Assembly (NCBI GenBank): GCA_021234155.1
Contig: JAJEKV010000216.1
Location: forward strand, 186,001 to 250,000
Source of the DNA: Isoetes taiwanensis
Taxonomy: Eukaryota; Streptophyta; Lycopodiopsida; Isoetales; Isoetaceae
Reading direction: 5' to 3'
Length of the DNA stretch: 64,000 nucleotides
Shown piece after piece: positions 25,641 through 57,700 of this stretch; positions within the stretch are counted from its first letter, which is position 1, and each line of letters begins with the position of its first letter. A program made the translations under genes and the position numbers. A model generated the notes under the pieces. It searched no databases, was not told the origin of the DNA, and saw only the letters and a program-made list of their open reading frames with translations.

Positions 25641-25872
25641 AATCTATTCCGCCTTCTTGTTTTACACCTTCACACCTTCACCTCTGCTGTTCTGAAGCTT
25701 TCACCCGCCTTCACCATGTTTAGCCTTTGAAACCATACCGAGAGGAGATAGATGCAAAATCGAGTAAGGGAAAACATTCCGCCATAGCCAAGCTTAACTT
25801 AGAGCTGCTCCTGCCGCAAACAAAAAAAAAACTCTAGGAAAGGTAATTAGGAAACGATGCGATGATGCCACG

Positions 25873-28188: not shown

Positions 28189-28190
28189 GT

Positions 28191-28203
28191 TGGTATCAGA
28201 GCA
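28191..28203 (+). promoter_or_regulatory. primer-binding site (initiator tRNA-Met type)
   Basis: TGGTATCAGAGCA lies two bases after the 5' LTR. It is the usual plant PBS complementary to the 3' end of initiator tRNA-Met. Confidence 0.95.
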
Positions 28204-28275
28204 AAGTTCTGGTTAGTGGATTATGAGATTTGTGATTATTGATGATATTTGCTATGGTTCCAGATTCTTGTAGAG

Positions 28276-29430: not shown

Positions 29431-29934
29431 GACCCTCCTGTTGAAAGAATGTGCATGTATGCTGCAGTGGACCAGGGCCGTGTAGATAATCAAGCTGTGG
29501 TTATCAGAGTTCCAGGTATTATTCATGGAGTCCCTATTCTCTTTCTTATTGATTGTGGTAGTACACATTGTTTTATTTCCCCAAGGCTGGCAAAGAAACT
29601 AGATTTGAATATGATTAGTCGGGACCCTAGATATGTGGAGTTGGCTGATGGTAAAATTAAGACTTCTTATGCTAAGGTAGACAATCTTAAATTCCAAGTA
29701 GGAGATCTTGAGTCCCATACTAGTTTTGAAGTATTGAGCCTAGGGAAGTATGATGCTATTCTAGGAATGTCATGGTTAAGGCCATATAAAGCTTGCATTG
29801 ATTATGAGAGCAAACAGTTACATGCCAAAGTCCTAATGGAGATAAGCATGTCTTTGGAAGGATTGCCTTCGTCATTAGTGGTTACACCTTTGTCCGGAAA
29901 AGTTTTAAGAAACAGATTAAGAATGGTTGCATAA
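29400..29934 (+). CDS. aspartic protease of the 25.9-kb gypsy element
   Basis: Retropepsin-type protease. The active-site block is LFLIDCGSTHCFI, with DCG in place of the usual DSG/DTG; this variant is seen in plant Ty3/gypsy elements. The second conserved block, YDAILGMSWLRPY, follows at the normal distance. It processes the gag-pol polyprotein. The frame is open for 168 codons and then shifts before RT. Confidence 0.9.
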
Positions 29935-29984
29935 GAATGGGATGTGCATTTTTGGCATGGCTGAAAGTTACTGTGAACAACCTA

Positions 29985-30790
29985 TTGCTCCCCGAGATCC
30001 GTAAAGTATTGGATGAGTTCTCTCGATGTGTTTCCTAAAGAATTACCGTAATTGCCTCCACATAGAATGGTAGATCATGAGATAGAACTTGTTCCCGGGG
30101 CTGAACCCACATCAAGGCCACCATATAGATTTCATGCATTAGAGATGGCGAATTGAAGAAACAGTTTGGCGGAATTATTGGAACAAGGGTTTATACTACC
30201 GAAAGTGTTTCTCCATTTGGTGCGCCAGGTTTTGTTTGTAAAAAAGAAAGACGGGACTTTAAGATTATGTATTGACTATCGATGCTTAACCAGATTATGT
30301 TGAAGAATAGATATGCATTGCCTAGGGTTGATGAGTTATTTGATCGGGTTGGGACAAGCTAAGTACTTCACAAAAATTGATCTACGATCCGGATATCATC
30401 GATCCGGATCAAGGATACGATATTTACAAGACCCGCTTTTAGGACACGCTACGGACATTACGAGTTTGTTGTAATGCCCTTTGGGTTGACAAATGCTCCC
30501 GCCACTTTTATGCGCCCTAATGAACTAGATATTCCGATCTTTCCCGGATAAGTTTATATTGGTTTTCTTTGATGATATTTTGGTATATTCCGGGACATTA
30601 GAGGAGCATGTGGAACATGTAAAGCGTACATTAGCTATTTTTTGACGAGAAAAGTTGTATGGTAAGTTATCTAAGTGTTCCTTTGCACAAACTAGATTGG
30701 TATATCTTGGGCATGTAATTTCAGAAAAAGGATTAGAGCCGGATCCTTCTAAGATTGAGGCAGCTTAGAGATTGGCCCACACCAAAGAGG
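29985..30790 (+). pseudogene. pol: reverse transcriptase of the 25.9-kb gypsy element
   Basis: RT blocks are visible in broken frames: [52 protein letters not shown], and the catalytic LVFFDDILVYS (FFDD in place of YxDD) near 30560-30590, then KCSFAQTRLVYLGHVIS. Several single-base shifts and in-frame stops are present, so no full-length enzyme can be read from this copy. Confidence 0.9.
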
Positions 30791-30849
30791 GGGTGAAGGA
30801 GGTAAGATCATTTTGGGATTAGGGGTATTATCGCAAATTTGTTCCTAAA

Positions 30850-31340
30850 TTCGCAAAGATTGCCGCTCCTTTGACTTCTTTGTTGGGTAAGAAGAATGAT
30901 TTGCATTGACCTGATAATTGTCGTGAAAGTTTCCAAAAGTTAAAGGATGTTTTGATTAGTGCACCAGTTTTAAGGATTCCGCATATGAATATACCCTTCC
31001 ATGTAGTCACCGATGCTTCGGGAAAGTCAGAGGAGGAGTCTTCGCAGGATGGCCGAAGTTTGTGCTTATATATCTCAGAAATTGTCTCCTGCTGAACAAA
31101 ATTACCCAGTGCATGATTTGGAAATGTTGGCCATTATCCATGCCTTAAGGGTATGGAGACATTATTTATTGGGTCGTCGTTTCTTTTTGAAGACTGACCA
31201 TCAAAATTTGAAGTATTTTGCAAAATGACCATATTTGAATAATAGGCAAAGGAGGTGGATGCAATTAAGAGAAGAGTATGATTTTGAAATTGAATATCAA
31301 CCCCGCAAAGAAAATGTGATTGCCGATGCTTTGTCTCAAG
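30850..31340 (+). pseudogene. pol: RNase H of the 25.9-kb gypsy element
   Basis: The tether (FAKIAAPLTSLLGKKND) leads to RNase H: FHVVTDAS carries the first catalytic Asp, then [20 protein letters not shown] carries the Glu, then [13 protein letters not shown] carries the next Asp. It ends with WMQLREEYDFEIEYQPRKEN and a VIADALS block. Frame breaks occur near 31020 and 31228. Confidence 0.9.
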
Positions 31341-31459
31341 GTCATTTTTAACCTCTATTAGTGTGTTACAAGGGCAATGGGATGCAGATATTCTTAATAA
31401 GCTAAGGAATGATCCATATTTTGCACCTGTGTTGGAGAACCCTCAAGATTTTTCGAGGT

Positions 31460-31600
31460 ATGCATTGTCCAAAGGAGTTTTATATTATAATGGCCGTATG
31501 TGTATTCCTAATGATCATGAGTTGAGATTGAGGTTGCTATATGAAGCACATGATAGTCCGCTAAGGTGCCACCCGTGGGGTACATAAAACTTTGAGGAAG
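31460..31600 (+). pseudogene. pol: truncated integrase zinc-binding start
   Basis: LCIPNDHELRLRLLYEAHDS, then a damaged GGHPG-type block (RCHPWGT) and KTLRKM, mark the beginning of the HHCC integrase domain. Within about 90 bases the polypurine tract and 3' LTR follow, so the DDE catalytic core is absent. The copy cannot integrate by itself. Confidence 0.8.
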
Positions 31601-31676
31601 ATGCCACATGGGAAGATGCCAATTGGATTCTTCGTGAGTTTCCCGAGATGCGCCCATGAGGACATGGGTTGAATTT

Positions 31677-31689
31677 TTGGAGGAGAGAC
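31677..31689 (+). promoter_or_regulatory. polypurine tract
   Basis: TTGGAGGAGAGAC sits directly before the 3' LTR, as expected for the plus-strand primer. Confidence 0.85.
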
Positions 31690-33995
31690 TGTAACGGACC
31701 TAGGATTTTGAGGTAAATTGTGGATTATTTTATTTAAAAGATGCAAAGGAATATTAATCAAAATATCACGCATGCAGAGAAATACGTCGTATATGTAGAG
31801 ATTATACGGACAAAATACTGTGGTTAAAAATAAATATAAGTACAGAGAAAAGCATTGGGAAAAAGATTGATTGCAGAGGGATTGCTGAAGGAGCGAATCG
31901 CGTGCAGAGCTCTGGGAGCGTGTTGGAGCGCAGAAAAAGCAACAAGCGGGATTCCAGGTGGGGATCAAGCCTTTACACCGGGTTTTTACAGAGCAAAATT
32001 GTGCATGCTGAATTGTGTTGATGCAGTAGGATTGTTATGAAACTTAGTATTGATTTAGAATTAAACTAAAAGTGCATGAATATGGAAAAAGCTTGCATGA
32101 TTGAATTTGGAAGTATTTTATGATGGCATATTGACAGTTGCAAAAAGTATCACGGATCTAAGTGAGACAGGCATCTAGATCATGCCAAGTAATCGGAATA
32201 GCTCATATTAGAACATGAGGGATGGATTAAGGTAAAGGGATGGCTGGAATCGCTTAAAAACCGTGGTTAAAATTGTAAAGTTCCCCGGCATCTTCCGCCG
32301 ATTTTATATAACAGATCCCGTATCGGTGATGATCCGGAAGCATGAAATGTGATGAGAAATGGGTCGATTTGGGCCTTAGAGTGGCCGAAATGGAAAAGGA
32401 ATGAGGAATCGGGAAGATCAAAGCAAGATTCACCAGAAATCCCATGATTTTGGTGCTCAAGAATTGATCCGGAACTGCCGGATTTGGGTCAGAAACTGGC
32501 CGAAATGGCCAGAAAACCCCTTTGCAACCAAAATCGGGAGGAGCTAGGGAGTTTTGGCATGGAATCGATGGCCTGGAGGCCAACCGACAATAAAGAAGTC
32601 GAGGTCGCACTCGTAACGTAGTTAGGGTTAGGTTATGAAGTCAAAAATGTTAACGATTTAGTTAATAGTTAGTAAGGAAGTAATAATAAAAAGTTTGAGG
32701 TTAAAGTTAAGGCTCTATCTTAAAATATCAAGGTTGAGTTGTTGGGTTCGGAATATATTTAAGCTGGAGGCCCTTGTTAAGGCGGGTTTATACTAATGGT
32801 CATAACGACATGAGAAGACTAACAAGTTATCTAGTTATATATATTAAAAAGAGAAAACCTTTGGAAATTAGCTAAGTAACATTATGTAAAAAAAAAACAA
32901 GCATATGGAAATTGGTAAAGGAACCATAACGATATCTAAATGCTATAGATTAATATTATTAAAGTCTCTAGTAACCTTATTGTTAGTGAATCTATGAAAG
33001 ATATAGACGTTTATTTTTAATTTAATGGTGATGGTTGCATTTTTGCATTATTAAGGCTATGGTTAGACATTTCATGTGTGAATTATGGAATTATTTGATG
33101 TTGAGTATGTTAAGGCATGGGCATGATGGTGAATTGTATGTAATTGTATATGGTGAAATTCTTTGATATAGACCCTCAGGGCCGAGTCTAGGTGCGATGG
33201 TCTAGACTCACCGGTTTGCACAAAGGCTATGTAAATGGTATTTTGAACATGAGGGGCGTTGGTACCGTAAGGTACAACGTCATGCATAAGTGGTCCTCCA
33301 ACGCTTTGGACGCACGTGGAAGGGTGTGTACACACGTGGTTACCCGCCTCTATGTCACCGGGCCCGATCACCGAGTTGACCTTGCCTCGCACCCTGCAGG
33401 AATATTGGTTGCAATGTTGATGCTATGGTTGCTTGGCTAGTGTATATGTGGTATTTAATGCCGGAATCAAGTTGCAATGGTTGTGCTTAGCATAATTATG
33501 CATTGTATTTATGTTGGTTGGACTAGTAACTTGGATTGCGTGGGCGAGGTTAAGGCTAAGTTATTGTTTATGTTGATGCTTGTGGTAATTGATGCTTGAT
33601 ATATTCTAAATCCCCGATCCCCACTTAGTCCGTGTGACTAACCCCGTGGGTTAAATGGTGTAAGAGGTGCGAGATGCTCCAGGAGAGTAGCCAAGCCGCA
33701 GTAAAGGCGAGAGTAGGAGTGTGTGAATTGCTAGATAATACATTTGATTACTATAACTATTATTATTATGGATCGGTTTAAACTATAATTATTTGTAAAC
33801 TTGGTTGTTGTGTGGGATTTTGCCGAGCAATGGCAAGTATAATATTTTTGGGACCTTAGAGCACGAATAAAGATTAAATTCTTTTACCTAAGTATGCATG
33901 TATTAATTTCTTGAGTCTAAGAGCTAAGTAGATCCAACGGTAGAGATCGATGGGATCTCCAGTTACCGAGAGGTTAACTGGCCAGGCCCGTCACA
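31690..33995 (+). repeat. 3' LTR of the 25.9-kb gypsy element
   Basis: Begins TGTAACGGACC and ends CCCGTCACA, and is followed by the CCACG target duplication. The ORFs inside it (for example 33072-33440) are chance frames in both strands. Confidence 0.95.
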
Positions 33996-40702: not shown

Positions 40703-41585
40703 CGGCGTTTATTGGATCAAATAAAAAAATGGAGCAACGTTCTATGTTTCATTTCTTTAAATTTGTAACTTCAGCTGGATAGATAGTGACCAAGAACTTT
40801 ACTTCATATCCAATACGCCTTACTAACAGTTTAGTTTATTTCCCGAGATAAAGATGGAGAATTTTAGTTCATCTAGGATACATGCGCCCTAGGGCTTAAA
40901 TTTGACGGCCTTCATGCCTGGTTTTTGCACTTTCACTGTCAAAACAAGTAAAAAAATAGTATTGCAAATGAAAGGTAGCCAATGACTGAATTTGTGTCAT
41001 AAGAAAAATTATTTCCCTCAAATGTGGCGTTGGAATTAGAGTTGTATTCAAGTCGTAAGTTGATACGGTTGCATTTAAATGGCTAACACATGTTTGCATC
41101 TAAAGATGTTTTATATTATTTTTCTAATCTTTTGAGAATATTGATGAAGAACTCATCTTTGAGTTTAGTTTATTTTCCAATAATAGTGATGGACTTTTAC
41201 TCATCTTGAATATGTCTTAAGAGTTAGTTTATATCCTCCAGTAACTAACTAGTTGTTGTATTCAATTTAGGAAGTTGATACTTTGGTGTATTTAAATGCT
41301 TAAAATGCATGTTTGCATGATGTCCTACATTCATTCGCTTCTGTCTAGAGGGCATAAATTCAACAATCATTGGAGCATGGCCCATACAATACATAGTTCT
41401 AGACTTATATGGAGTGCGAGCGAGCATTAGTTGTTTCACCTAATTGGTGGCGGATCACGATACATGTGCATAGATGTCGTAGCTACTCTTTTTGTATATC
41501 TGACTATTGGATTTGAAAATGTTTAACTTTAAAGTTTGTAGTTATTGTCCTCTATATTCTAAATGAGGTGCATCTGGACTACCTT
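40703..41585. repeat. dispersed repeat copy B, left piece
   Basis: Matches copy A (15337-15460 and 16195-16940) up to GAGGTGCATCTGGACTACC. There the chromovirus LTR begins; the match resumes at 61270. Confidence 0.9.
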
Positions 41586-41587
41586 TG

Positions 41588-43171
41588 TGGACGCTCCCGA
41601 GAATATATCGACCCCTACCGTATACATAGGGGACTTTCCCCTCCCAAAGGCGACCATCGCGCCATGAGCGGGGCCCTCCATCTAACCGGGCCATCTCGTG
41701 AGAGGCGGCTCGGGTGAAGGACTGTGAGGAGGTCATTCGCATTACGCGCCGATGAAGCCCTACGCCGCGGAAGCATGAATACAAGGGTTAGCACACGGCA
41801 TAAATCACATATAAATAACCACCACGATGGGTGGCACATCCATCCAAACACCAACGGCCAAGAATATGCATCTAAGACTAAGAAAACACCCAAAACCGAG
41901 GTTCTACCCCGGTTTGGACTCTAGTGGGGGAAGCGACCGATGGCTGGGTCTCGGGGAGATCTGAGACCAAATCTTGGCATGGCGTTGGCTGGCATAGAAC
42001 ATCGGCCAGGGTTGTCCACTCCATCCGCCCCTCCCCTGCACACTTTGCGGATGGGTCGATTCACGCTATGGCCGCTATAGCCTTCAAAGGAGAGCGGCTC
42101 TAGGGATCACCCTTTGAGTCTACTCGGGTTCATGACACCCGGTCCGATGAGGGCGTGGGGGGGCGTCCCCTTCCGGGATCACAGTGGTGTCGTGGGTGAG
42201 CTAGAGAATACGTGCGCATCCCGCACGACCCGATCCCAGGTACCCGACTTACTCACCCTAATTCTACTCAAAGTGCATGGTGCCCCATGCGGGTCACACC
42301 ACTACACCCGAGTGGAGTGTCGGACCCATACCCGCCCCTCCACGTGACCGGCCATCAGGCCTAGCCCCTTTGTAGGAGTCTCGAGAGCCTTTTATGCTCG
42401 TGCAAGACCCCACCCCCTACTTCACCTGCAAGCGTCCCTTGTGCGGTGCTAAGCCGGACCATGGCGTCTATGACCCGGTGGGCTCTTGTGCAAGGCGAAA
42501 CTAGTAGGGCATTTAAGGAAGTACTAGGAGCATTCTATACTTGAGCTCGAGAGGCCTCTACCCCCTTTTAACCCACATTTCTTTGGAAATTACTGAACTA
42601 ACTCATAGAGACATCGACCATTCCATAACAGAGCATCATTCGTGAATTGAACAATATTCCTAGTTACCAAAGAAGGGTTAATCCCAACCAAAGCTAGTCG
42701 GACAAGAACATCAAAGTATTATTCTACAAATTGCAAATTAAACTACCATCGACGGTGTTTGCTAGAGCCGTTGTCAAGGGGTGCCTCCATAGTCTTTGTC
42801 TTGGGGTGGCGACAACAGTTAAAGGGGTGTCTTGGCGATTGGGCGAGGTTCATTGTTGGGCCCCGAAAGTGCTTAGCCGCTTCCGGTCTTGGTTGGGTCG
42901 AAATTGGGGTGAGATGGGGGGTGGCGTCACTTGGTGGCTTGGTTTAGAAACCCCATGCTAGCCACCTGGTTATGCCAAATGGCGCCTTCCCACCATTAGG
43001 TGTCTTAATAGCAAGTATTTAGGTAATTATCCTTTATAATTAAGTTAGCATAGCTAATTAAATCCATTGTGGCCAACCCCTAGGTCAACATGCCCCATAG
43101 TAGTGTATCTATCTTTGGGTGACGTGTCAATATATTTATACATTATCCGTAGAAATACTTGGAACGTCACA
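41588..43171 (-). repeat. 3' LTR of the chromovirus
   Basis: Matches the right-hand LTR (54943-56306 plus 61058-61269) from end to end. Its segment CCCCATGCTAGCC is the empty site of the transposon that split the other LTR. Confidence 0.9.
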
Positions 43172-43184
43172 TTCTTCCCTCCTT
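43172..43184 (-). promoter_or_regulatory. polypurine tract of the chromovirus
   Basis: On the minus strand it reads AAGGAGGGAAGAA and directly abuts the 3' LTR, confirming the orientation of the element. Confidence 0.85.
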
Positions 43185-43779
43185 AGAATTAATGCTGTCC
43201 TCAAAGATTGGGTTTAGATAGAATTATAGCAAAACACATTATGAAGGAAGGTAATTCCTTATTTTCGAAGATAATATATTAAAACTTTAAAGTTTAAAAA
43301 ACAGGTTTAAGCAATCAAGTGCATTGCACATGATTATGATAGTGAAAAGTTCAAGGACCGAAGTCCAATATCAACACCAGAGTAGCACAAGAACAAAACA
43401 TGTAGACAAAATAAAAGTAGACAAATCGGGTCATCAGCAACCCTCTATACATGGGCAGGTGACGTACTGCTCACTGGCCTACACATGTCAATACATGAGT
43501 ATGTAGATAGTAAGTAGGTTGTGGTTGAAGGGACCACCCCCTATATAAAAAAATGAAAAGAAAAAGAAAAAAATAAATAAAAACTATACTACATGGTTTC
43601 CAAGCAGTTCGTAGTCATGTCCACATTGACGGTACACCACGTCCTAGGGAACACGAAGGTGATCCCATCATTGGTAACTATTATCAACTATGATGCATCT
43701 ACCTCTGTTCCGCATACTTCTTGGCGAAACAAGTCTTGCACTTACCGCCAGAAGCGGGGTTGATCGCATCGTTGATAGT

Positions 43780-43915
43780 GCGGCCTTGAGATTCGCATGA
43801 AGTCCGGATAGTGCTTGTCAAGGTCTATTTTCATCACCCACGTAGCATCCTCAACTAGTAAGTGTTTCCACTTAACCAAGTATTGCAACATTTGAGTCCT
43901 TACGGTTTGTTTGTA
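43780..43915 (-). pseudogene. pol: chromodomain at the end of the integrase
   Basis: QYLVKWKHLLVEDATWV, then KIDLDKHYPDF, is the core of a chromodomain as found at the C-terminus of chromovirus integrases: YLVKWK strand, W in ATW. In the family it guides integration to chromatin, and chromodomains of HP1 type bind methylated histone H3 tails. The frame is not continuous with the integrase core in this copy. Confidence 0.8.
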
Positions 43916-44139
43916 AGCTCGATCAAGAAGAGCTTGGGGACTATCTCGAGTTGCTCCTCCGTCATTTCTAGGAGGGTTGGGGTGTCCAAAACCTCTTACG
44001 GATCGGGGTTTGTTGCTTGAGAAGACTCACGTGAAAGACTTTATGGATCTTCAAGCGGGCGGCAAATCCAAAGCGATATGCCTACTCTCCAACACGGTCA
44101 ATAATCTTGAACGGTCCAGCCCATCGGGTGCCAACTTCT

Positions 44140-45230
44140 TTACTGATTACCAATCTTAAGCTTGGCTTGTTTCACCTTAATCTTAAGCCAAACTGATTCA
44201 CCCACCTTGAAATTGCGTGGGGTTCTGTGTTTGTCGGCCACACTCTTCTGACGACTGCGTGCCGCTAATAAATAATCACGAACTTCTTCGACCAGAGCTT
44301 GCATCTCTAAGAGGAGTTGTTGAGAAACCTCTACTTTAGAGGCGGGGTTATGCCATGTATCTGGGGTAAGGCATTGATAACCATAGTTTATCATAAAGGG
44401 GACATCTGGAAGATTCACGCTTCATCTTTGTTATAAGCAAACTCAACCAGATAAATATAGTCGGACCATTGTGATTGCTTACTCCACACATAACTTCTTA
44501 GCATATCCTCTATAATGCGATTGGTCCGCCTGTTTGGCCATCTGTTTGAGGATGATATCTTTGTGCTCATAGCAAGCTTGGTGCGAATGGTGGTAAAGAA
44601 ATCTTTCGAGAATCGCGCCACAAATTTGGGATCCCTATCCGACACAATTACTCGTGGCATTCCGTGTAATCTGAAGATTTCCTTGGCGAAAAGCAGAGCA
44701 GAGTATCAAAGGTTGTATCCGTGGTACGGCATGGCAAGAAATGAGCCATTTTGGACAATTTGTCGACCACAACCATTAAGGCATCATATCCACAATGAAA
44801 TCCATGGTTATTACTTCCCATTTGGCGTTGGGCACATCTAGAGGTTGTAGCTCACACGGGATTTTTAATCGATTACGCTTTAGTCTGGCGGCATATCGAC
44901 CTTTGCCTAATGTATCGGCAATGTCCTTCTTCATAGAAGGCCAGAAATAGGTGGAACGAATCTTAAAGTAGGTTTTCATAAACCCCGCATGTCCAGCTAT
45001 AGGGCTATTGTGCGTGTCATGAAGAATGAGTTTCAGACTCGAAGCTCTGCGGTACACACAACTTATCCTTGTGATATAATAAGTTGCCCTCCTTCTTATA
45101 GGCCACGAAAAGCATCGGCGCTCTGCATCCGAGGCGAGCTTCTTTAGCCAAACTATCCCAAATGTCCACGAAATTCGGATCCGTGGCCAAGGTCTGCTCT
45201 ATATGTTTGCCAAACTCACCGGTAAGCATA
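44140..45230 (-). pseudogene. pol: integrase of the chromovirus
   Basis: The zinc-binding part (LILHDTHNSPIAGHAGFMKT and YFWPSMKKDI) lies at 45035-44930. The catalytic core shows WEVITMDFIVDMMP with the first Asp at about 44800 and VIVSDRDPKFVARF with the second near 44640. The C-terminal region reads LLAARSRQKSVADKHRTPRN, FKVGESVWLKIK (the GPF/Y-like region) at 44300-44160. Shifts occur between blocks. The family inserts the cDNA into host chromosomes. Confidence 0.9.
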
Positions 45231-45850
45231 GAAATGGCATTGCAATGGGTTGGTCACCAAGGGATGGCGTGTTAATGCATCCGCAACCACATTGTGCTTG
45301 CCGGGCTTGTACATAATCTCGAAATCATACTCCTCCAAGAATTCCATCCATCTTCTTTGACGGAGATTAAGATTTACCGGGTGAATAAATAACGGAGACT
45401 TTGATGATCCAGTATCAATTGGAACCTTCTACCAAGAAGGTAGTGTCTCCATATTCGCAGGGGCACGGACAACGGCTAACAATTCGATCATGGGTAGGAT
45501 CGTTGCTGCTCGCCTCGTTCATTTTCTTAGAGTCATAAGCAATAACTCTCCCCTCCGCATTAGGACCCCACCGGTGGCAATTTTGCTAGCATCTGTTGCC
45601 ACTAGCTTATCCTGATCGGGATCGGGTAACGCGGAGAACTGGTGCTGAGGTGAGGGCATCCTTAAGCTGCTGGAAGCTTTCTTTGGACCTTCGATCTTCG
45701 AAAGGCTCCATCCAATCCTTCACCTTTTCCTCGCTTGGTGAGATTGGTAAGAGGAGCTGCAATCCTTGCAAAATCCTTTACAAATTTCGGTAATATCCGC
45801 TAATCCCAAGAAGTCTGCGGATTTTAAACATTCCCTGAATAGGCCATTCT
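45230..45850 (-). pseudogene. pol: RNase H of the chromovirus
   Basis: Broken frames contain VATDASKIATGGVL near 45590, with the first catalytic Asp, and the C-terminal [15 protein letters not shown]-type block near 45330. Stops and indels prevent a full reading. Confidence 0.75.
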
Positions 45851-46690
45851 CTTACGGCCTCTATCTTTGCGGGGGTCTGTAGCAATTCCCTCTCAAGGAA
45901 ATGATATGGCCTAAATAATCAACCCTGAGTGGCGAACTTGCACTTAGAGAACTTGGCATAGAGTTGATGACGCCCCGCCTTTTGTAGGGCCAATCTAAGA
46001 TGTTTCTCATGTTCTTCAAGGGTCTTCTTGTAGATGAGAATGTCGTCGAAGAAAATAACAACAAAATCATCCAAGTATTGTAGGAAGACATCATTCATTA
46101 GTCGCATAAACGTTCTTTGGGGCACTAGTTAATCCAAAAGGCATAATCGTAAATTCATAATGTCCATACCTAGTGCTTGGCGGATTTATGGATGTCCTCC
46201 TCCTTGATCTTATCCGATGGTATCCGGAGCTTAAGATCAATCTTTGAGAAATACTTAGCCCCTTGTAACCGATCCATTGGGTCATCTCGCCTAGGCAAAA
46301 GCATAGCGATTCTTGATGGTATGCTTGTTAAGTTGTCGGTAATCAATACACATCCTCGATGAGCAGTCCTTTTTCTTAACAAAGAGAATAAAAGCCAAAG
46401 GCGAGAAACACTAGGTCGGATGAAACCTAGGTTTAATAGCTCTTGAAGTTGCTTCTTAAGTTACGCCGCCAGTGCGGAGGACTCATACGATGCACTGAGC
46501 CTTCTTTGGTAGGCTTGGTACCTGGTTCTAAAGCTATTTCACATTCCACCCCTCTAAAAGGAGGAAGCTTCTGAATCTCATCCGGAAAAAGATCACCAAA
46601 TTCGCGGAGAAGATTAGCAATCCCCTCTGGGAGGGCGTCGATTACTTGTTTTTGCTTAGCATCTGACTCGATGGAAGCAAGCATAACGAT
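45850..46690 (-). pseudogene. pol: reverse transcriptase of the chromovirus
   Basis: From the right: LREFGDLFPDEIQKLPPFRG, then [17 protein letters not shown], and [20 protein letters not shown] with the catalytic FFDD at about 46060, followed by [12 protein letters not shown]. Frames shift at least three times. The family copies the element RNA into DNA inside particles. Confidence 0.9.
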
Positions 46691-46719
46691 GCAAAGGAGC
46701 TTTTCCTTGTGTATAGCTT

Positions 46720-47110
46720 TATCTAACTGCGATGGACATAGATCTGCAGGATTGGGTTGAGAGGTTCACCTTTAACAGTTACGCGAGCTCCATTAGCTGC
46801 ATTGAAGGTAACTTCTCTCTTCTCGCAGTCTATGTTCGCTTTTGCGGATGCCAGGAATTCCATACCAACAATGAGGTCATATTTGCCAATATCCATCAAT
46901 TCAGCCCCTAAAGCAACGGTGCACACTGGGAGTTGCATGTTGAGATTGATCGGCGGCCATGGGTATGCGGCTTTTACCAGCGGCTAGAGGTGCCGGGTCT
47001 CGGGACGGGACCTCAATGTTTCTAGGCGTAAGACATAGGCCATCCTAGGAGAAGCAAAATTATGTGTACTTCCGTGTCCATAAGAATTACAAAAGGCTTC
47101 CTGTCTACTT
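46720..47110 (-). pseudogene. aspartic protease of the chromovirus
   Basis: The active-site motif is DTGSTHNF-like near 47060, broken by one missing base inside the DTG codons. The second block, YDLIVGMEFLASAKANIDC, is at about 46880-46820. Normal retropepsin layout. Confidence 0.8.
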
Positions 47111-48480
47111 GGCCTATGGTAGAAATAGCGACAAGTTGACTTTCAAGCATTGCCGGTTTCTATAGCCGCAAGGATATGAGACGACCGTGAATGTGTCGGG
47201 GAGCCTCCTCCTCGGCCGGGTTGTGTTGTTTGAGGTCATCCCAATCGAGGTCGGCCATGGCCGGTTGGTTAGTCCAAGCGTGACATAAGGGGCAGTGCAT
47301 GAAGTGTCCCGCCTCATACACTCAGAACATGCTTTATCTCGCGGGAGCCGCTGTTCTCGAGCCTCTTTAGGAATAATAGATAAGAGGTTCGAACTTCCTT
47401 ACGGCATTGTTACGCTTATCAGCGCACTAAAGGTAACCTTCTTTTCGGCGGCCATAAGAGTTTCGGCCGAGAGGCCCCGGACTTGGGGGAGCGGGGTTTG
47501 TAAGGTGTGGGCGGCCGTGGGCTGCAGTAAAGGCGCGGGGCGTGGATCTTGGTTCTTTGGCGTGTCCTCCTCGAGGCTCAATGCTTTAGCCTCTGCCTGA
47601 AGCGATTTTGGGTCTATGGCCTTAACCATCCGTTTGATTGATGGTGCCAATCCCTCAATATAGCCTTTGCCCTTTTCTCATTCATACGGTACATACAACC
47701 TCCGGCGCATAAACTCATCCAGGTGTAAGCACGAGACGGACATACTCTTCTGCTCCAACTTTAGAAAGTGCGGATCTGTTGGCATTTGTGCGCACGGGGC
47801 ACATAATGCGACTTGAAGGCCTTGGCAAACTTTACGAAGTTGCATCTGCTCCTTTCAAATGCTTGGCTCGGCATAGCCCTTCCACCAAACACGGGCAGGC
47901 TCTGTAAAGGTTGGTGGTGGCAACCTTTCACTGTATCTTTTCTCTGTCATTCCAGAAGACTTCCCAAACTCCTTCATCTCATCCAACCGGGACTCGGCGT
48001 TTAGACCGCCTCGGGATTTCCCATCAAACCGGGCCAATTTCCTATTCTTCCATATACCTTCGTTATAGTCTGTATCAACCGTCTTACGGTACTCTTTTGT
48101 CTCGGCGCTTTGCATGGTCACCTGGCTGATACCGATGAACCGGAAGATCGGAAGTGGTTGATCGTGAGGAAGTGGCACTATCTTTAGAGGAACCGGTAGC
48201 GCTTAGCATGAGGCCTCCTCCTTGCAGTCACGGGACTAGCCGTGGGAGATGGCTGTTGTGCAGGTGGACTTCGGTGGTAGCGGAGGTAACGCCCGGTCCA
48301 TCCTCACCGGGTTTGTTGCGGTGGGTTGGCATGCAATACATAGGCACGTAGTTAGCCTAACCGCCCTTTTCATTAACATCAGTTCCTCGTTCAGAGTGAC
48401 CCTATCGGGCGTTGGAGGGTGTTACGCCAAAGCGGCGAGCACTGCGCACCGTCTATATCGAGCATTCATGGAAGCATAAG
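47110..48480 (-). pseudogene. gag: gag of the chromovirus
   Basis: Gag-core blocks are PARVWWKGYAEPS (about 47900), CNFVKFAKAFKSHYVP (about 47840) and RRLYVPYE followed by EGLAPSIKRMVKAIDPKSLQ (47710-47580). A Cys-rich zinc-knuckle-like stretch (CSECMRRD...) lies near 47330. Frames change several times. Gag builds the particle. Confidence 0.75.
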
Positions 48481-48568
48481 CAGGCGTACAATAACATACA
48501 ATTTTATTTAGATAACAATTGCCGACAAGGAAAAGAAAAGTACGAATAAAACCGATGTTTCATTTCAT

Positions 48569-49140
48569 TCAAGTTGAGTACAACAACAAGTTGATTGGTA
48601 CAAGGGTTGGCATGAAGGAGGTATTATCTGATGGAAGTTTTAAAGTTCTCTTTGGCACACAACGAATAACAACAACAAAACACATAACTTGAGGGACCAA
48701 GCCTAGGGGTTCCAAAGGGGGTGCGAGGATCGAGTAGCGGACACTCTCGTCACTGACCCTAACGACATGGCGTGCCCGGGCTTGTACAATTACTGGTTGG
48801 TATTCCCACGTTGGGCTAACAATGAGAAGATTGAAAAGCCCAGAGAGCATAGAAGAGTTGCCACAAGCCTCGTGCACGCTCATACTCCAATAGTCCAGTG
48901 CGGCCGACGGGGGTCAACGAGGGTCCTCAAAAGCTCTGTCCCTAAGGATGTTAACTATCTCCAACCCTTTGTCGGGATCATAGGGTTCTCCGGGTGGTGG
49001 GGTTCCATCTCATAGCCTTCATCCCATTAGGGATATTCGCCATATCTCTCGGCCATAGTCACCACTCTGGCGGCGGGATCATCCCTCGATCATGTCGGTA
49101 ATCCTCTCCTCATATTCCCAAAGGGTCTCTTCTGCAAGGC
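48569..49140 (-). CDS. chromovirus accessory block C, unidentified
   Basis: Coding-like minus-strand sequence (GEPYDPDKGLEIVNILRDRA, then a 104-codon open frame from 48883) ends at a stop followed by an AT-rich spacer before gag. I recognise no domain. Frames change at least once. Confidence 0.35.
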
Positions 49141-49399
49141 AGTTTGAAATGAATGTAGAGGGTTGTATAGTTTTCGTTATAGTTCAACTTCAATAACCAT
49201 CAACACATGATAGAAGGAATAATTTTCAATTGTATTCATAAAGATAGTCCTTACAATCGATGAAAAGAGAGATGTATCATATTATAAAGTAGCTAAAGAA
49301 TTTGCCAACCTAAAATTTTCTGGTCATACATAATACAAAAATCGTAGTACAATTAGTTTAAGAGCTAGGTCCCTCCTCTTCACTTTCGTAGGCCTAGGA

Positions 49400-50714
49400 G
49401 GTGGTGGTGGTAGTCGGTGTCGCAGCCAGAGTCACCCCGGGGTCTCTTGTAAAAGCTACAATGGATGCAACCTCCGGGGTGGGTAGGCAACGGCTAATGG
49501 GGCTGCCGTGGGAGCTTCATGCTCATCCGAGGGTGCAATATCGACCCAAGGCGTTAGAGCAAGATCCGTCGCCGCAGTACATAAGTAAGCGTCACGATGG
49601 GGGAGCTTCTTGTGGCCGGCGGTCTGCGAGAGGGAACGCGGAGGGCCCACCATGAAAAGGACTTGCCCGTGTCGAAAGGTACGACAAAAAGCGGGTAAGG
49701 TGGTTGCCCGATACTTTCCCTTGCGGGGTCTCCGATGTGGCCACCTCCTTATCCAAATCCATGGAAACCTCCTCTTCCTTAAGTTCTTGCTGCTCCTCCT
49801 TCACATAATGCGGGATTATGATATAAATCCTCTCCCTCGTCATCTCGACCGGAGGGAACCTCAACCATATTGATATTGCGGGCGGAGGGTCCCATAGCCG
49901 TGAAGGCATCCGGTGAGGTTTGTGAGGCGGCTCCACGCATCCGCGAAGTCGAAGGCGTGGTAGAGTCTCGGCCCGGCTCTATGGTCTCTTGGCGGAACTG
50001 GCAACGCTTTGCACCTCGGGAGGAAGCTCAATAGAATTGAAGTCGATGAAGTCATCCATGCAATACTCCGCAAGCTCGTAAAGCACATGGTCTTTACGCT
50101 TGCGTCTAAATCCGGCCACCATGTGATAAGTCCAGATAATATCATCCAGAGAAGATATTCTTGCCCTTGGTGATAAATAGCGGAAGGGCATCCGACCACG
50201 ACAAGCCTACGGCTTGTTCCGGCGGGAGGCGGACTCTTCCGCTAATTGCCTCCAGCGGGCGAAGTCGCCCATGCTTATGTGTTCGTTTTCCCCCTCCTCG
50301 GAAGATTGAGGCGGTTTGCCTTTCTCCTGAGCAAAGTTTCATCCTCGACATATTGGTCCATGAGGATGGCTAGGGCAAAGGCAACCTCAAGGTATTGCCG
50401 ACCCACGATCTTTGCACAACAGGCGGTGTTTGCCCCATCGGAGTTTCCTTTCGGCACATCGTATGCATGGGTGTCTCCCCTAGCATCTCCCAGGACCTCC
50501 CGCTCGGTCTGGTGGGGAGGGTCCCCAAGAAGGAATACAGGAGGAGCATCTCCTCCATGTAGAAGTCTAAAATCCGGTGTAATCACGGGTGCCTTTGCAT
50601 GTTAGCAAGGAGGTCAGTATTTGGCGAGCAAGGGTCGCAGCAGGTCGAAGGGACTTGCGGATCCCATTGCTCTCGATCATGGTACAAAGGCGATAGGGTT
50701 TCGGCGGCTGCCAT
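49400..50714 (-). CDS. chromovirus accessory block B, unidentified
   Basis: A likely start is the ATG at 50714 (MAAAETLSPLYHDREQWDPQ). Later segments in shifting frames read QYLEVAFALAILMDQYVEDE (50390-50330), ISSLDDIIWTYHMVAGFRRK (50155-50095) and an acidic coiled-coil-like VKEEQQELKEEEVSMDLDKE (49800-49740). It lies between AT-rich spacers (about 50910-50770 and 49370-49150). No family was recognised; it has no gag or pol motif. Confidence 0.4.
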
Positions 50715-50877
50715 GGCGCTAGAAAGGGAGGGAGGAAGAAGAACAAACGTAGCAGGTGAAATGAAGTTTAAAAAGTTCTTTTATTTGAGGTCGACGCCAA
50801 GCATTCTTTCATATTGAATTACGAAATAGATAAAAAAAAATACAAGATAAAAGTTTTTCTATTAAATACAAAAAAAA

Positions 50878-50899
50878 ATATATATATATATATATATAT
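50878..50899. repeat. (TA)n microsatellite
   Basis: Eleven uninterrupted TA units in the spacer just after the stop of the H3-like block. Confidence 0.95.
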
Positions 50900-50911
50900 T
50901 TACAATGCGGA

Positions 50912-52352
50912 TCAAGCATAATAGACTAAGGATGCTCCCCGAATCCTATGGGCGAGGGCTAAATCCTTAGGCATTATGGTTACCCTCTTTGCGTGGATCG
51001 CGCAAAGATTGGCGTCTAAAAAGTGCCACCAAATAGGCTTCAGCCAGACCTCTTGGAGTGCCAAAATAGCAAAAAGTCCTGGAAAGCGGAGGTCGGTCTT
51101 GAACTCTGTGCAATCTCGGACCAACCTGCGGAAGGAGCTTCCGTGTCGGAAGTTGAGTTGACCACGAAACTTCTGAATCTCGTGGAGCCCGCAGTGCGGG
51201 TTTATATGGGGTGGGGCTTCCTCTGGGGCGAGGGGGTTTGGAGGCGGCCCTCTTAGTGCGGGCGGTCTTGGCCCCAGCGATCCGGTCGGGGCGTGTCCAC
51301 CATTAGCGCCGCCGATTGGAGCTTCGCATTCTTACCAAAAGCACCGGCGGTCCGTAACTTATCCTTGTATTGGTACCCCGATCTTGGGCTAAACCCTTCC
51401 TCGGTTTAGCGGTCACATGCTCGTGTGGGTTGGGCCCGACCGCTTCGGATCCCCGTCCCCCGTGGGTTAGATTGCAGTCTTACTGGCGAGCCTTCTTCTC
51501 CCTTCGAGCCTCTCTATTCTTCCGGTACTCGGGCTCTCCTCGAATCTTCTTGAATCGAAGCGGGTGTTAGGCGCTTGCGAAAAGTTGACATAATGCCGGT
51601 GTTGGGTGTTGGTTCATATCAATACGGATCGTTGTCGTAATCCGACCGATATCGGATCGGGGCTCCCCACATGAAGCTCTGAGAGCCTTCATGCCATTCG
51701 TACGGGGGAACCTCAATTTCCCTGCCATCTATGACGCCAAAGCCGTCCCCTAAATACCGGTACTCCCTGCCACGAGTAGCTGTATCTGCTCACTCTACCT
51801 CCCGATGGTCATCCTCCCTGGCGAAGGCCCTAATGCGATCAGCTTCTGCCCTGATATCCTCCTCCTCGGTATGGCCCTCTTGCTCGGGAGGATAGAACTT
51901 AATCAGCATCATAACCATGTCAGGTTGCTCGACAAGGGTGTAAGAAAGCTGACGAAGGTTCAGCCGGATCAGGAATGGCTCCGAGAAGTGATAGATAGGA
52001 TAGGGAATCCTATCATTATTCTCAAAAGCGGTTCACCAACTCATCGGAAGGATGTCGATGAAGGCCGATTCGGTAGCCATGTGCGGGCAATCAAGGCATA
52101 GATCTGCACTATGCTTAAGGTCTTTGGGTCTATGGTACTCTTGGTATTAGCCATAAGCGTGATGGTACTAAGGTCTATGGAGTCGAGGCGGTGAGGCGCC
52201 TTGAAAAGAGGCGGCAAAGAGGGCGCTAGGGGTTCGCAAGGCACAAAGGGCGGAAGAGGAGGATCAGTGTCTGGTGGCGATATGGCCCGTGATCCTCTGG
52301 CGGTCCGGCGACAAAGCGAAATAAGACAACTAAAAGAAATTTGAGCGGCCAA
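50912..52352 (-). CDS. chromovirus accessory block A with a histone H3-like C-terminus
   Basis: The N-terminal part (from ATGs at 52352 or 52154) is unidentified: [15 protein letters not shown], then [20 protein letters not shown] and an acidic [21 protein letters not shown] basic stretch (51560-51480) follows. The last ~95 residues (about 51197-50912) are an H3 histone fold: EIQKF at the alphaN/alpha1 entry, FRRLVRD, FKTDLRF (51103-51083, loop 1), ALQE, then [16 protein letters not shown] (51010-50963), which equals canonical H3 in 16 of 16 positions, then LALAHRIRG and a stop after a non-H3 extension (ASLVYYA). Upstream, in another frame, [16 protein letters not shown] resembles an H3 N-terminal tail. 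FKTDLRF points to canonical H3 rather than CENH3, which lacks it. Frameshifts remain, so whether one protein is made is unknown. Confidence 0.8.
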
Positions 52353-52439
52353 TTAACTTTTTGAAATTTTTTTAAAATTTTCCTTATTAACTTTTAATTT
52401 CATTATTATTAATTAATTATATGGCTTAAAATACATGGC

Positions 52440-52860
52440 ATGCGGTCGAGCGCCCCGGCTGCGTTATCGTGCTCCGCTTCGACCAGGGGGTCGCCAAAAG
52501 CAAGCGGCGCCCGAGTTGACTGGCCGGGCGGCGTTGACTCTGTCGGTCACGATTCGGGCGCCATTTGCATTTCGGCTCTTCCACCATGGACTGCAAGGCG
52601 ATAAAAGCAAGCGCCGCCGGATTGGTTTTCGGGCCTGCCCTTGACCGTTTTTCGCTGAGACGCGTCTATTCTAGGGTAATTTGAGTGCGCCCGATCCAAT
52701 GGAACCACTTCCTCCGTCATCTGAGCTACCCATTGACATTTACAACTCCTCCAATCTTGGGCCCTCCGGTCGCCCTATCTTATATTATAATGTTGTGTAA
52801 TGGACCGCACCCTAAATCGGACGGTCGAGGATTTGATTGACCAATGGTGGAGATGATGTG
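52440..52860. other. chromovirus leader, non-repetitive part
   Basis: A GC-richer stretch with a 69-codon antisense frame. No motif. It separates the first coding block from the purine tract. Confidence 0.4.
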
Positions 52861-52902
52861 TGCGTGTCTTCAACTAAAATTTCATCTTGACTATGGCTTC
52901 AA

Positions 52903-54730
52903 TATGAAAGGGAAAAGGAAAAGGAAAAAGGAAAAGGAAAAGGAAAAGGAAAAACGAAAAGGGAAAAGGGAAAAGGGAAGGGAAGGGGAAGGGAAAAGAA
53001 AAACGATGAAAGGGAAAAGGGAAAAGGAAAACGGAAAAGGGAAGGGAAAAGGAAAAACGATGAAAGGGAAAAGGGAAAACGATGAAAGGGAAAAGGGAAA
53101 AGGAAAAGGGGAAGGGAAAAGGAAAAAAGATGAAAGGGAAAAGGGAAAACGGAAAATGGAAAACGGAAACGGAAAAGGGAAAAGGGAAAAGGGAAAAGGG
53201 AAAAGGGAAAAGGAAAAGGGACGGGAAAAGGAAAACGATGAAAGGAAAAGGAAAAAGGAAACGGAAAAGGGAAGGGAAAAGGAAAATGATGAAAGGGAAA
53301 AGGAAAAGGAAAAGGGAAAAGGGAAAAGGAAAAGGGAAAAGGAAAACGATGAAAGGGAAAAAAGGAAAAGGAAAAAGGGAAAAGGAAAAAAGAAAAAACG
53401 ATGAAAGGGAAAAAGGGAAAAGGAAGAGGGAAGGGAAAAGGAAAAACGATGAAAGGGAAAAGGAAGAGGGGAAGGGAAAAGAAAAACGATGAAAGGGAAA
53501 AAAGGGAAAAGGGAAAAGGAAGAGGGGAAGGGAAAAGGAAAAACGATGAAAGGGAAAAGGGAAAAGGGAAAAGGGAAAAGGAATAAAAGAAAGGTAAGAG
53601 GAAAAAGGAAAGAGAAGGAGAAAAGGAAAATGGAAAGATAAAAGAAAATAGAAAAAGGAATAGAATAGGCGAGGGGGAAAGGGAACGGAAAAAGAGCACC
53701 GCGAGAAGGGTAAGAAGTAAAGGTGAGAAAAGGAGAAAAAGGTAAGGGAAAATAAGAAAAGGTTGCAAAGTCTATGGAAAAAGAAAAGTAAAAAGGAAAA
53801 GAGAGGGGGAAAAGGGAAAAAGAGAACTTGGGAAAAGGGAACGAGAAAAAGAGAAAAAAGGAAAGGGCGTGAAAAAAAGGGAAAAGAGAAAGGGTGAAGA
53901 AAGAGAAAAAGGAAAGCAAAAAGAGCATCGAGAAAAAGGAAGAGGGAAAGGATGGAAAAATGAGGAAAAAGGTGGGGGAAATTAGAATAGACAAAGGGTA
54001 GGGAGCAAGGAATAGGAAAAGAGGAAGGAGAAAAGGGCACGAGAAAAAAGGGAAGAGGGAAAGGGTGAGGAAATAGAAAAAAGAAAGGGAAAAAGAGTAT
54101 GGAAAGGGAAAAGAAAAAAGAAACAAGAAAGGAGAAAGTGGAAAGGGGAAAAAGGGGAAGAAGATGGGGAAAGAAGGAAAAAGGGTACATAAAAAAGGTT
54201 GAGAAAAGGGAATGGAAAGAGGCATATGAAAAGCGAAAGGGAACGGGAAAGGGAAAATGTAAAGGAAGGGGAAAGAGAAAGGAAAGGGAAAAAGGGAACA
54301 CACAAAGCAAAAGGGTGGGGAAAGTATGAAAAGGGAATGGAAAGTTGAAAGGAAAAGGGAAGCGGAAAAAGGAGAAGGGAAAGCAAAAAGAGCATGAGGA
54401 AAAGAGGAGAGAGAAATGGGAAAAGAGATGGGGAAAAGGGCACGTGATCAAGAGGAAGAGGGTGGGGAAAGGAAGAAAAGGGCACATGAAAAGGTAAGCA
54501 AAAGAGAACGAAAAATGCATGAGAAACGGGAAAGAGAAAAGGAAAAGGAAAAGGAAGAGGAAGGGGAAAAGGAAAGGGAAAGAGAGTAGTGGAAAAATGG
54601 GAAGAGCGGGGGAAAAATAAAAAGGAAGGGAAAAAGTCGACAAGAAAAAGAGAAAGAAAAAAAAGGGGAAGGGAAAGGGAAGGCAAAGGGAGGGAGAACG
54701 GGGTTAGAAAAAAAAAGGGAGAATAAAAAA
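52903..54730. repeat. 1.8-kb homopurine/homopyrimidine tandem repeat
   Basis: The plus strand is almost only A and G. At 52903-53590 a unit of about 40-50 bp recurs, built of GGGAAAAGGGAAAAGG runs and punctuated about eleven times by CGATGAAA. From 53590 to 54730 the pattern is looser (GGAAAAAGAGAAAAGG type). In the sense direction of the chromovirus it is a C/T-rich leader. Open frames of up to 589 codons inside it (F, P, L, S only) follow from the repeat and are not genes. Confidence 0.95.
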
Positions 54731-57700
54731 AGAAAGAAATTAAAGGTTCCTAATTTATGCCCCAAAGAAGGTGGGCCGGGTACCATTACTAGTAACTTCC
54801 TAATTTAACCTAAACACGAACCAAACATCAAAGAGGACCGACAACACATCAACTTAGCCTCTTCCTAACTACCGCATTTATGCGTTAGTGTTTGGTTAGT
54901 GCTATGATTTCGAGCACCAAATCACCGCCTCGATACTCACCGCGGACGCCCTGTAATATATACGACCCCCGGCCGATACATTGGGGACTTTCCCCAAGGC
55001 TTACCATCGCGCCATGAGCAGGTGGCCCTCCATCTAACCCGGACCATCTACGAGACGCCAGTGAAGGACACGGAGGGGTCATTCGCCCACGCCGATGGGC
55101 GCCTACGCCGCTGAAGCATGAATACAAGGGTTAGCACATAAAGATAAATCACATATAAATAACCACCACGATGGGTGGCACATCCATCCAAACACCAACG
55201 GCCAAGAATATGCATCTAAGACTAAGAAAACACCCAAAACCCGTGTTCTACCCCTGTTCGGACTCTAGTGGTCGAGCGGACCGATCGCTGGGTCTCGTGG
55301 AGATCGGCAGACCAATCTTGGCATGGCGCTGGCTGGCATAGAACATCGGCCGTGGTTGTTCACTCCATCCGCCCCCCTGTGCACACTTTGCGATGGGTCG
55401 ATTCACGCTTATGGCTTCGCTTATAGCCTTCCTGAGACGCTGTGCTCTAGGGATCACCCTTGAGTCTACTCCGTGTTCATGACATTACCCGATGAGGCAG
55501 GTCGGGAGGCGCCCCCCTTCCCGTGATCACAAGGTGTCGTGGGTGAGCTAGAGAATACGTGCCGCATCAGCGACCCCCCTCGCATCCGCATCCGACTTAC
55601 TCACCCTAATTCTACTCAGTGCATGGTGCCCCATACGGTCACACCACTACACCCGGAGTGGAGGACCCATACCCGCCCTCCACGGGACCGACTATCGCCT
55701 AGCCCTTTGTCAGAGGGAGTCTCGTGAGCCTTTTATGCTCGTGGCAAGACCCCACCCCCTACTTCACCATCAAGGCCCCTTGTCTGCGGTGCTAAGCCGC
55801 ACTATAGCGCTCTATGACCCGGTGGGCTCTTGTGCATGTGCCAAAAACTAGTAGGGCATTTAAGGAAGTACTAGGAGCATTCTATACTTGAGCTGTGAGG
55901 CCTCTACCCCCCTTTTAACTCCACATTTACTAGAAATTCTTGAACTAACTCATAGAGACATCGACCATTCCATAATGAGCATCATTCGTGAATTGAACAA
56001 TATTCCTAGTTACCAAAGAAGGGTTAATCCAACCAAAGCTAGTCGACAAGAACACCAAAGTATTATTCTACAAATTGCAAATTAAACTACCATCGACGGT
56101 GTTTCTGGCCAGAGCCGTTGTCAAGGGGTGCCTCCATAGTGCAGCATCTTTGGGGTGGCAAAGAATCTGCTAAAGGGTGTCTTGGCGATTGGCGAGGTTC
56201 GGCAACTGGGCCCCGAGCGCTTAGCCGCCTCAGTCTTGGTTGGGTCGAAATTGGGGTGAGATGGGGTGGCGTTTGTCACTTGGTGGCTTGGTTTAGAAAC
56301 CCCATACCCGGGGTTCACCTCTATGTAAAGGGGATATGGCATGTTCCGGTCGTGGGAGAAACCCCTCCAGATATGGCTCGCCCCCATAGAAACCCCTAAT
56401 GTATATTCCGATGTTGGTGAAAAATAATACCGATTCCATACTTTTTACGCCTAGTCCAATCCCCATTGACCCTACCCTTAACCGTATTTTTACGTCAAGT
56501 ATATCACTAATGTAGCCTACCCTCTACCTTTTTACATTCAACCTCCAAATTTTGCAAGCGCCACAAGGTTGGTTGCATACCAATGCTAAATTCATATTAG
56601 TTGAACTAAGGTCCAATTGCTAAAACCATAGTTCTACCCCCGGGTCTTATCTAGCAAAACCTTTACTCCAAACACTAAACCTCGTTAGAGCTTGAGAATG
56701 AGTCTACCCTAGCGTTACCCAGGCCCCGACCCTTAATCCTAGTGAATGCAAATGTAGGTTCCTTCCGGATTCTTCAAAGGCAGACAAAGAATGAAGGGGA
56801 CTACGATAATAGACCCAAACAGACCAAACAGCTTCAAGAAAACTTAGAAAGGTTAAGTGCATATTTTATTATACCGTATGACTATGTACTCTTGGGTTCT
56901 ACAAGAATAGCAAAGAATGAAGGGGACTAAATCATTAGGCTTTACTACCCAGAGAAGGAGTGCAAGAGCTAAAACAAGATTTTAAGATTTTAACATGGAG
57001 TGATAAAGCCAAGCAATCAATGAAGAGATTGAATGTTCAGTCCCAAGCAAAGATACACTTGTCCAAACCCTCCACGCTCATGAAACGAAAGCACCATGTA
57101 GTAGTTAAATACTTCTAAGTTTATGCAAAAGAACTAAGAGATCTAATAGAAATAGATAGCAATGTGATTAAAGTCGTGTGAAAAGACATCTCTATAAATG
57201 TCCAGCTTTTAGATTCAATACACTCGATCTATTTTCACAAACAACCATTATGGTGTGGCTATGTACAAACTTTGGGCAGAGGTCAACATTCTTACTTATT
57301 TACAAATCAAACTTTCCCTTTGTCATGATGAATATGGCCACTCAAAATCAGCCATATTCATTATTAAAGCCAAGTGACCTCTTTACTATGAGTGTGCAAA
57401 TCCATAATGCATACACCTTTATGACATGACATTATGTTCCGTATAGCCGTAGATAACATTTTTCATATTAAGAGCAAAAGATATGTTGTTAAATCACTTG
57501 GCAAATATAAGGACAAGTGTCACAAGCTCCTAAGATCCAAAGGCAAGTTCGCACCAGTTTTGAAAGGCAAATAAGTCGTGAAATGTCTATAGAACACAAA
57601 TGCTAAAAAGATGCAGATAAGCACTTGATCTTTTCTAAAAAACATATATTTCCTGTCATATAGCCAGCAGTTTTTACGACATTATTATAGGCAGCCTTTT

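Follow-up and report, generated by a model that had tools for sequence, protein, structure and literature searches.

Can a core histone gene become part of an LTR retrotransposon? This question is raised by a histone H3-like frame in a 64,000-nucleotide stretch of Isoetes taiwanensis DNA (assembly GCA_021234155.1, contig JAJEKV010000216.1, positions 186,001 to 250,000 of the forward strand), referred to as the window, in whose coordinates all features are given. A reading made from the sequence alone had described the frame as a captured H3 gene or a stable component of the element, with selection or recent capture as the reason for its partial conservation. The evidence presented here shows that the H3 copy is real and that it lies within a chromovirus, probably as a captured passenger. 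An intact H3 recurring in the family would mean that a core protein of chromatin travels in a retrotransposon, a very surprising situation, and if such an H3 were also expressed, the element would supply the histone whose marks its own integrase reads. If no intact H3 recurs in this way, it is one more captured passenger.

The homology itself is supported by several methods. The minus-strand ORF 50912-51331 contains FKTDLRF, ALQE and a perfect 16-residue run in the order of H3, as had been noticed by eye, and the profile search proposed at that time returns the Pfam Histone domain with an E-value of 7.3e-12 (46.1 bits against a cut-off of 26.4). In a phmmer search against the PDB, 173 distinct sequences have an E-value of 0.001 or lower, and among the best 60 of these 173 the top match is 7ux9_E, named Histone H3.3 (E 1.9e-19). 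The reference for the alignments and for tblastn was a plant H3.3 sequence. By tblastn it gives four matches in the window, of which only the H3 copy has an E-value below 1 (1.9e-19); a second H3 match at E <1 is absent from the 64 kb. Frame-aware alignment to this reference scores 298, against a mean of 43.75 and a maximum of 57 in 20 single-base shuffles, and extends over residues 1-133 (Met = 1), where 122 codons are aligned and 75 of them agree, while H3.1 as the reference scores 287. When aligned as nucleotides to degenerate H3.3 codons, the copy can be followed on the minus strand from 51338 down to a stop codon at 50926, which coincides with the H3 stop position; the copy is placed at 50926..51338, from approximately residue 1 to the stop codon.

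Scored as separate stretches, residues 45-82, 83-110 and 108-136 each stand far above shuffled sequence (z 16.9, 13.8 and 20.3), and on these sequence comparisons the H3 identity of the core is certain. Scored alone, residues 1-44 reach 30.4 (z 2.8), which lies inside the range of 100 shuffles, whose mean is 20.5 and whose maximum is 32.6. The N-terminal tail is accepted as likely H3 because it is collinear with the core, which is the one ground for doing so. The ten tail-like residues that had been noticed upstream are not in the frame of the core but in that of another ORF, 50967-51302.

The copy lies in a Ty3-type chromovirus of approximately 14.7 kb on the minus strand (41585..56304), recognized by its direct repeats and with outer ends that were placed by eye and are tentative. 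In the sense of the element, the 5' LTR occupies 54955..56305 and the 3' LTR 41602..42956, and the two are 84.9% identical by blastn and 81.0% identical in the columns of a global alignment. The pentanucleotides GGGTA (56309-56305) and AGGTA (41584-41580), alike at four of five positions, form a tentative candidate target duplication seen by eye. Just after the 5' LTR, a primer-binding-site-like sequence (54927..54939, minus, also tentative and by eye) has what we take to be a resemblance to the initiator-Met type; a tRNA scan gave no hit. A low-complexity, pyrimidine-rich leader follows at 52874..54750 (minus), as judged from ORFs, repeats and composition skew. It consists of about 1.9 kb of short-unit repeats, and its opposite strand carries Lys/Arg/Glu-rich ORFs.

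Downstream, the coding part of the element is ordered on the minus strand as well. A gag-like region was recognized by eye at 47150..48202 from the motif ARVWWKGYAEP; its pieces 47855-48202 and 47399-47677 have no Pfam match and the piece 47114-47398 has a sub-threshold match only. It is followed by an aspartyl protease (RVP_2, 46723..46983, E 5.1e-06), an integrase zinc-binding domain (Integrase_H2C2, 44776..45198, E 1.1e-12) and a chromodomain (PF00385, 43742..44026, E 1.1e-06). Neither Gag nor reverse transcriptase gave a match at the curated Pfam threshold in the pieces scanned, all of them outside 45200-46170. The LTRs, and between them the succession of protease, integrase and chromodomain along a single strand, are those of a Ty3/gypsy chromovirus. 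The H3 copy lies inside these LTRs in sense orientation, after the pyrimidine-rich leader and before the gag-like region. The earlier statement that it shares the strand of gag-pol and lies between the LTRs is thereby borne out, with the strand given by the protease, integrase and chromodomain matches and with two LTR-like repeats as flanks.

Three further blocks of gene-like open frames, all on the minus strand, lie beside the H3 copy between the leader and the gag-like region. Block A (51640..52260) contains the ORFs 52041-52352 and 51790-52032, block C extends over 49390..50715, and block D (48570..49140) contains the ORF 48569-48913. None has a Pfam match in the pieces scanned, the search in block C having covered four pieces and 49592-49978. 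These blocks are perhaps further captured genes or genes specific to the element. AT-rich spacers come after the H3 copy (50720..50910, minus), after block C and after block D. In a coding-periodicity test, the mean z was 1.10 for block A (nine windows), 0.47 for block C, 0.19 for block D and -0.37 for H3, but this test is without power because its positive controls also failed to stand out (gag-like region 0.19, protease to reverse transcriptase 0.21, integrase to chromodomain -0.11). A scan of viral contigs gave no pattern match with the H3 ORF, and with one ORF of block A it gave a single unconfirmed stretch and no relative.

The class of the H3 copy can be read in part. Leu 90 is present, which fits the plant H3.3 / H3.1A class, and a Tyr codon aligns at position 41, inside the weakly supported residues 1-44, while positions 31 and 87, at which T31 and H87 mark H3.3, are garbled and unreadable. 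According to PMC4357034, L90 together with Y41 is the signature of plant H3.3 and H3.1A, and the H3.1A genes of non-flowering plants are intronless. The alignment to degenerate H3.3 codons contains no intron-sized gap, so that the copy fits an H3.1A gene or a retrocopy made from H3.3, the plant H3.3 genes themselves having introns. Intronlessness as proof of a retrocopy was consequently rejected, given the intronless H3.1A genes that non-flowering plants own by the same source. Leu 90, with Y41 tentative, indicates either H3.3 or the H3.1A without introns that non-flowering plants have. The copy thus shares Leu 90, and tentatively Tyr 41, with the plant H3.3/H3.1A genes of that source and is intronless like H3.1A, but unlike these genes it lies within an LTR element and is broken by many frame shifts as printed.

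These frame breaks are central to the interpretation of the locus. Relative to H3, the copy shows 22 indel events, 19 of which are not multiples of three, and an intact single H3 frame is absent from the printed sequence; in addition, 41 of 226 determined positions are changed (ts/tv 18/23). The sequence-only reading had taken the helix α2 as diverged, since in its frame ALQE is followed by an unfamiliar 13-residue stretch. At the same place another frame reads AEAYLVALF, which is near the canonical H3 α2, and the odd α2 is therefore a frame break and not divergence of the fold. Some or all of the frame breaks are possibly consensus errors.

The repeats of the window offer a means of judging this. 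Seven repeat pairs were compared, and the clustering of their differences was tested by 500 random placements. Clustering beyond chance was found in three of the seven pairs, namely the chromovirus LTRs, the 26k/32k pair (the LTRs of a second element) and the 63k/17k pair, and in none of the other four. The longest identical run between the chromovirus LTRs is 98 (random placements: mean 32.4, maximum 55) and that of the 26k/32k pair is 409 (maximum 166), with ts/tv ratios close to 1 in the clustered pairs (98/101 and 50/50, respectively). In the three clustered pairs the density of differences climbs with GC content (rho 0.41, 0.56 and 0.51), whereas the four unclustered pairs show no significant relation (rho -0.06, -0.69, 0.26 and 0.03).

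The differences are further associated with particular trinucleotides. The share of CAG/CTG sites that have a difference no more than 3 bp away is 0.71 of 56 sites in the 26k/32k pair (circular shifts 0.23) and 0.94 of 36 sites in the chromovirus LTRs (shifts 0.51), values that were reached in 0 of 300 shifts in either pair. CCG/CGG behaves similarly (0.48 versus 0.22 in the 26k/32k pair and 0.75 versus 0.51 in the chromovirus LTRs; 0 of 300 shifts each). The comparison motifs are weaker, as can be seen from the number of shifts out of 300 that reach the observed value in the 26k/32k pair and the chromovirus LTRs, respectively: 84 and 11 for GAC/GTC, 6 and 7 for GCC/GGC, 6 and 5 for CAC/CTC, and 91 and 224 for GAG/GTG. 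Across the window CAG/CTG is depleted (observed/expected 0.56), while TAG/CTA (1.02) and CAA/TTG (1.06, and 1.17 in the chromovirus) are not. We infer that the clustered differences are base-calling errors at CHG-methylated sites; the CAG/CTG-type sites here are presumably such methylated and miscalled positions, an assumption drawn from the window statistics and from general knowledge. The 40.8k/16.2k pair is unclustered with a ts/tv of 26/11 and looks like ordinary divergence, but its differences still lie near CAG/CTG, one motif count for this pair having taken in any CNG and not CHG alone. This suggests that real deamination also contributes to the differences somewhere in the window.

The damage to the H3 copy tends to follow the same sites. 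No CAG/CTG falls in the clean stretches (122 bp), while nine fall in the damaged stretches (291 bp), and the chance that the clean 30% of the H3 holds none of the nine is approximately 1 in 23. Likewise, only two of eight Gln residues are kept, both of them encoded by CAA, and the other six are garbled (p 0.14 for the whole protein, not significant); from residue 45 to the stop, one of six Gln is kept compared to 59 of 87 other residues (p 0.02). Much of the apparent decay of the H3, including its frame breaks and its garbled α2, looks like consensus error, and the printed sequence may depart further from canonical H3 than the true copy does.

The argument for selection loses its basis at this point. 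The contrast between a diverged fold and a kept loop 2 had been read as a sign of selection, but it tracks the positions of CAG/CTG sites, at which the differences of two LTR pairs lie and which the H3 damage tends to follow. Selection on loop 2 was rejected because the 16-residue perfect run is, by eye, without CAG/CTG, the sites where differences between the LTRs gather. More generally, differences between repeat copies at CAG/CTG make 'conserved' islands and frame breaks unsafe as evidence of selection or decay: a seemingly conserved protein island can be a stretch that merely has no CAG/CTG-type sites, and the frame breaks in such elements allow no verdict on decay or selection unless accurate reads are available.

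How much true decay is left depends on the yardstick. In the core (residues 45-136), 21 of 150 determined positions are changed and 11 indels occur, equivalent to 0.140 + 0.041 per bp; among the 66 positions with two- or three-fold degeneracy, 4 are changed as well. This total approximately equals the pairwise total of the chromovirus LTRs at GC 0.45-0.62 (0.158 + 0.022 per bp), where pairwise totals are twice the per-copy values and aligners split substitutions and indels differently. Since the core damage is close to the element's own LTR pairwise difference, an intact frame may underlie the printed sequence, and the core damage may fit consensus error without further decay. If the LTR yardstick is halved, which presumes that errors hit the two copies independently and at different sites, the damage in the core is roughly double what would be expected, and this excess would be real decay. 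Because of that assumption the reading was set aside, but it counts as contrary evidence. At comparable GC, the core is also more damaged than the 26k/32k pair (0.086 + 0.026 pairwise). The tail (residues 1-44) is more heavily affected, with 20 of 75 positions changed and 11 indels (0.267 + 0.078 per bp), which is beyond the chromovirus LTR pairwise total at GC 0.62 and more (0.164 + 0.037).

With even confidence, we favour the reading that an intronless host H3 of the L90 class was taken into the chromovirus between leader and gag, where it is probably a passenger. In this scheme, a host H3 coding sequence without introns would enter the element by template switching of the reverse transcriptase on co-packaged host mRNA, or by read-through. 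It would then sit in sense within the element as a putative passenger, and consensus error at CAG/CTG-type sites, which may be CHG-methylated, would garble the captured copy by a presumably technical route. The proposal of a captured H3 gene is upheld by H3 homology over most or all of the length, by the continuous alignment without an intron-sized gap, by the sense orientation inside the LTRs and by flanks in which no insertion marks were seen.

These flanks bear on the explanation that one copy of the element received a processed pseudogene of H3, or a piece of H3 DNA, which has since decayed, which we regard as unlikely but worth weighing. The sequence-only reading had named a target duplication and a poly(A) tail as the marks of such an event, and neither of these LINE-type marks was seen beside the H3: no exact repeat of at least 9 bases is common to the flanks 51339-51900 and 50500-50925, 8-base exact repeats number three against 3.44 expected, and no sense-strand run of at least seven A occurs in 50400-51400. 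The check for a duplication is confined to exact repeats, so that consensus errors could hide one. The many frame breaks (19 of the 22 indel events) agree with a pseudogene, as does a tail damaged beyond the LTR yardstick and, with the halved LTR or the 26k/32k yardstick, the core too; however, the tendency of this damage to track CAG/CTG sites speaks against it.

It is distinctly improbable that the H3 is a functional gene, kept intact in the family, which the element expresses and whose product enters chromatin. Its sense orientation, a stop codon where that of H3 is expected and a core damaged within the pairwise difference of the element's own LTRs would all fit such a role, but the N-terminal tail is the most damaged and worst-supported part and the damage pattern lends no support to selection. 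The genes that LTR elements capture mostly ride along as passengers, which further counts against it. That a land-plant chromovirus family carries an intact H3 beside its chromodomain pol and expresses it from its own transcript is, in our judgement, a long shot.

Even less credence is given to the possibility that a nested mobile element carrying gene pieces, of the Helitron or Mutator-like type, brought in the H3 together with blocks A, C and D. The gene-like blocks around the H3, which lack a Pfam match and take up approximately 3.7 kb from leader to gag, would suit such an origin, and the H3 is bracketed by weak inverted arms (49628-49649 / 52758-52779; 22 nt, 77%) and by a weak direct pair (48703-48718 / 52226-52241; 16 nt, 88%); however, these pairs are short and may be due to chance, and five of the seven inverted pairs listed are low-complexity AT sequence beside the H3. 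An assembly chimaera in which LTR sequences were wrongly joined to either side of a host H3 gene is barely credible, for although the consensus looks poor, the H3, the protease, integrase and chromodomain and both LTRs are collinear with the genes on one strand.

Capture by the chromovirus, the favoured reading, has a known counterpart. The maize element Bs1 is a plant LTR retrotransposon with a transduced host gene, and the present case resembles it in having an intronless host coding sequence between LTRs, but differs in that its cargo is a core histone, H3. The element is like other chromoviruses in that protease, integrase zinc-binding and chromodomain matches are ordered on one strand between LTRs, and unlike them in the approximately 6.7 kb from the 5' LTR to the gag-like region, which hold the pyrimidine-rich tract, the H3 and the three blocks. 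In the titles and abstract openings of the literature searched, no LTR element carrying an H3 gene is described; in PMC6934838, H3 genes serve as a hybridisation control.

The window contains other repetitive features. A second LTR element lies on the plus strand at 25870-33995, with LTRs at 25870-28188 and 31688-33995 and an interior of approximately 3.5 kb, in which a gag-like ORF (28427-29485) has, by eye, a zinc-knuckle-like stretch and a Gly/Arg-rich stretch. Its LTRs, which form the 26k/32k pair, are identical over long runs that are interrupted by short garbled patches. Finally, tandem-like short direct repeats of 73-78% identity are found at 3072-3690.
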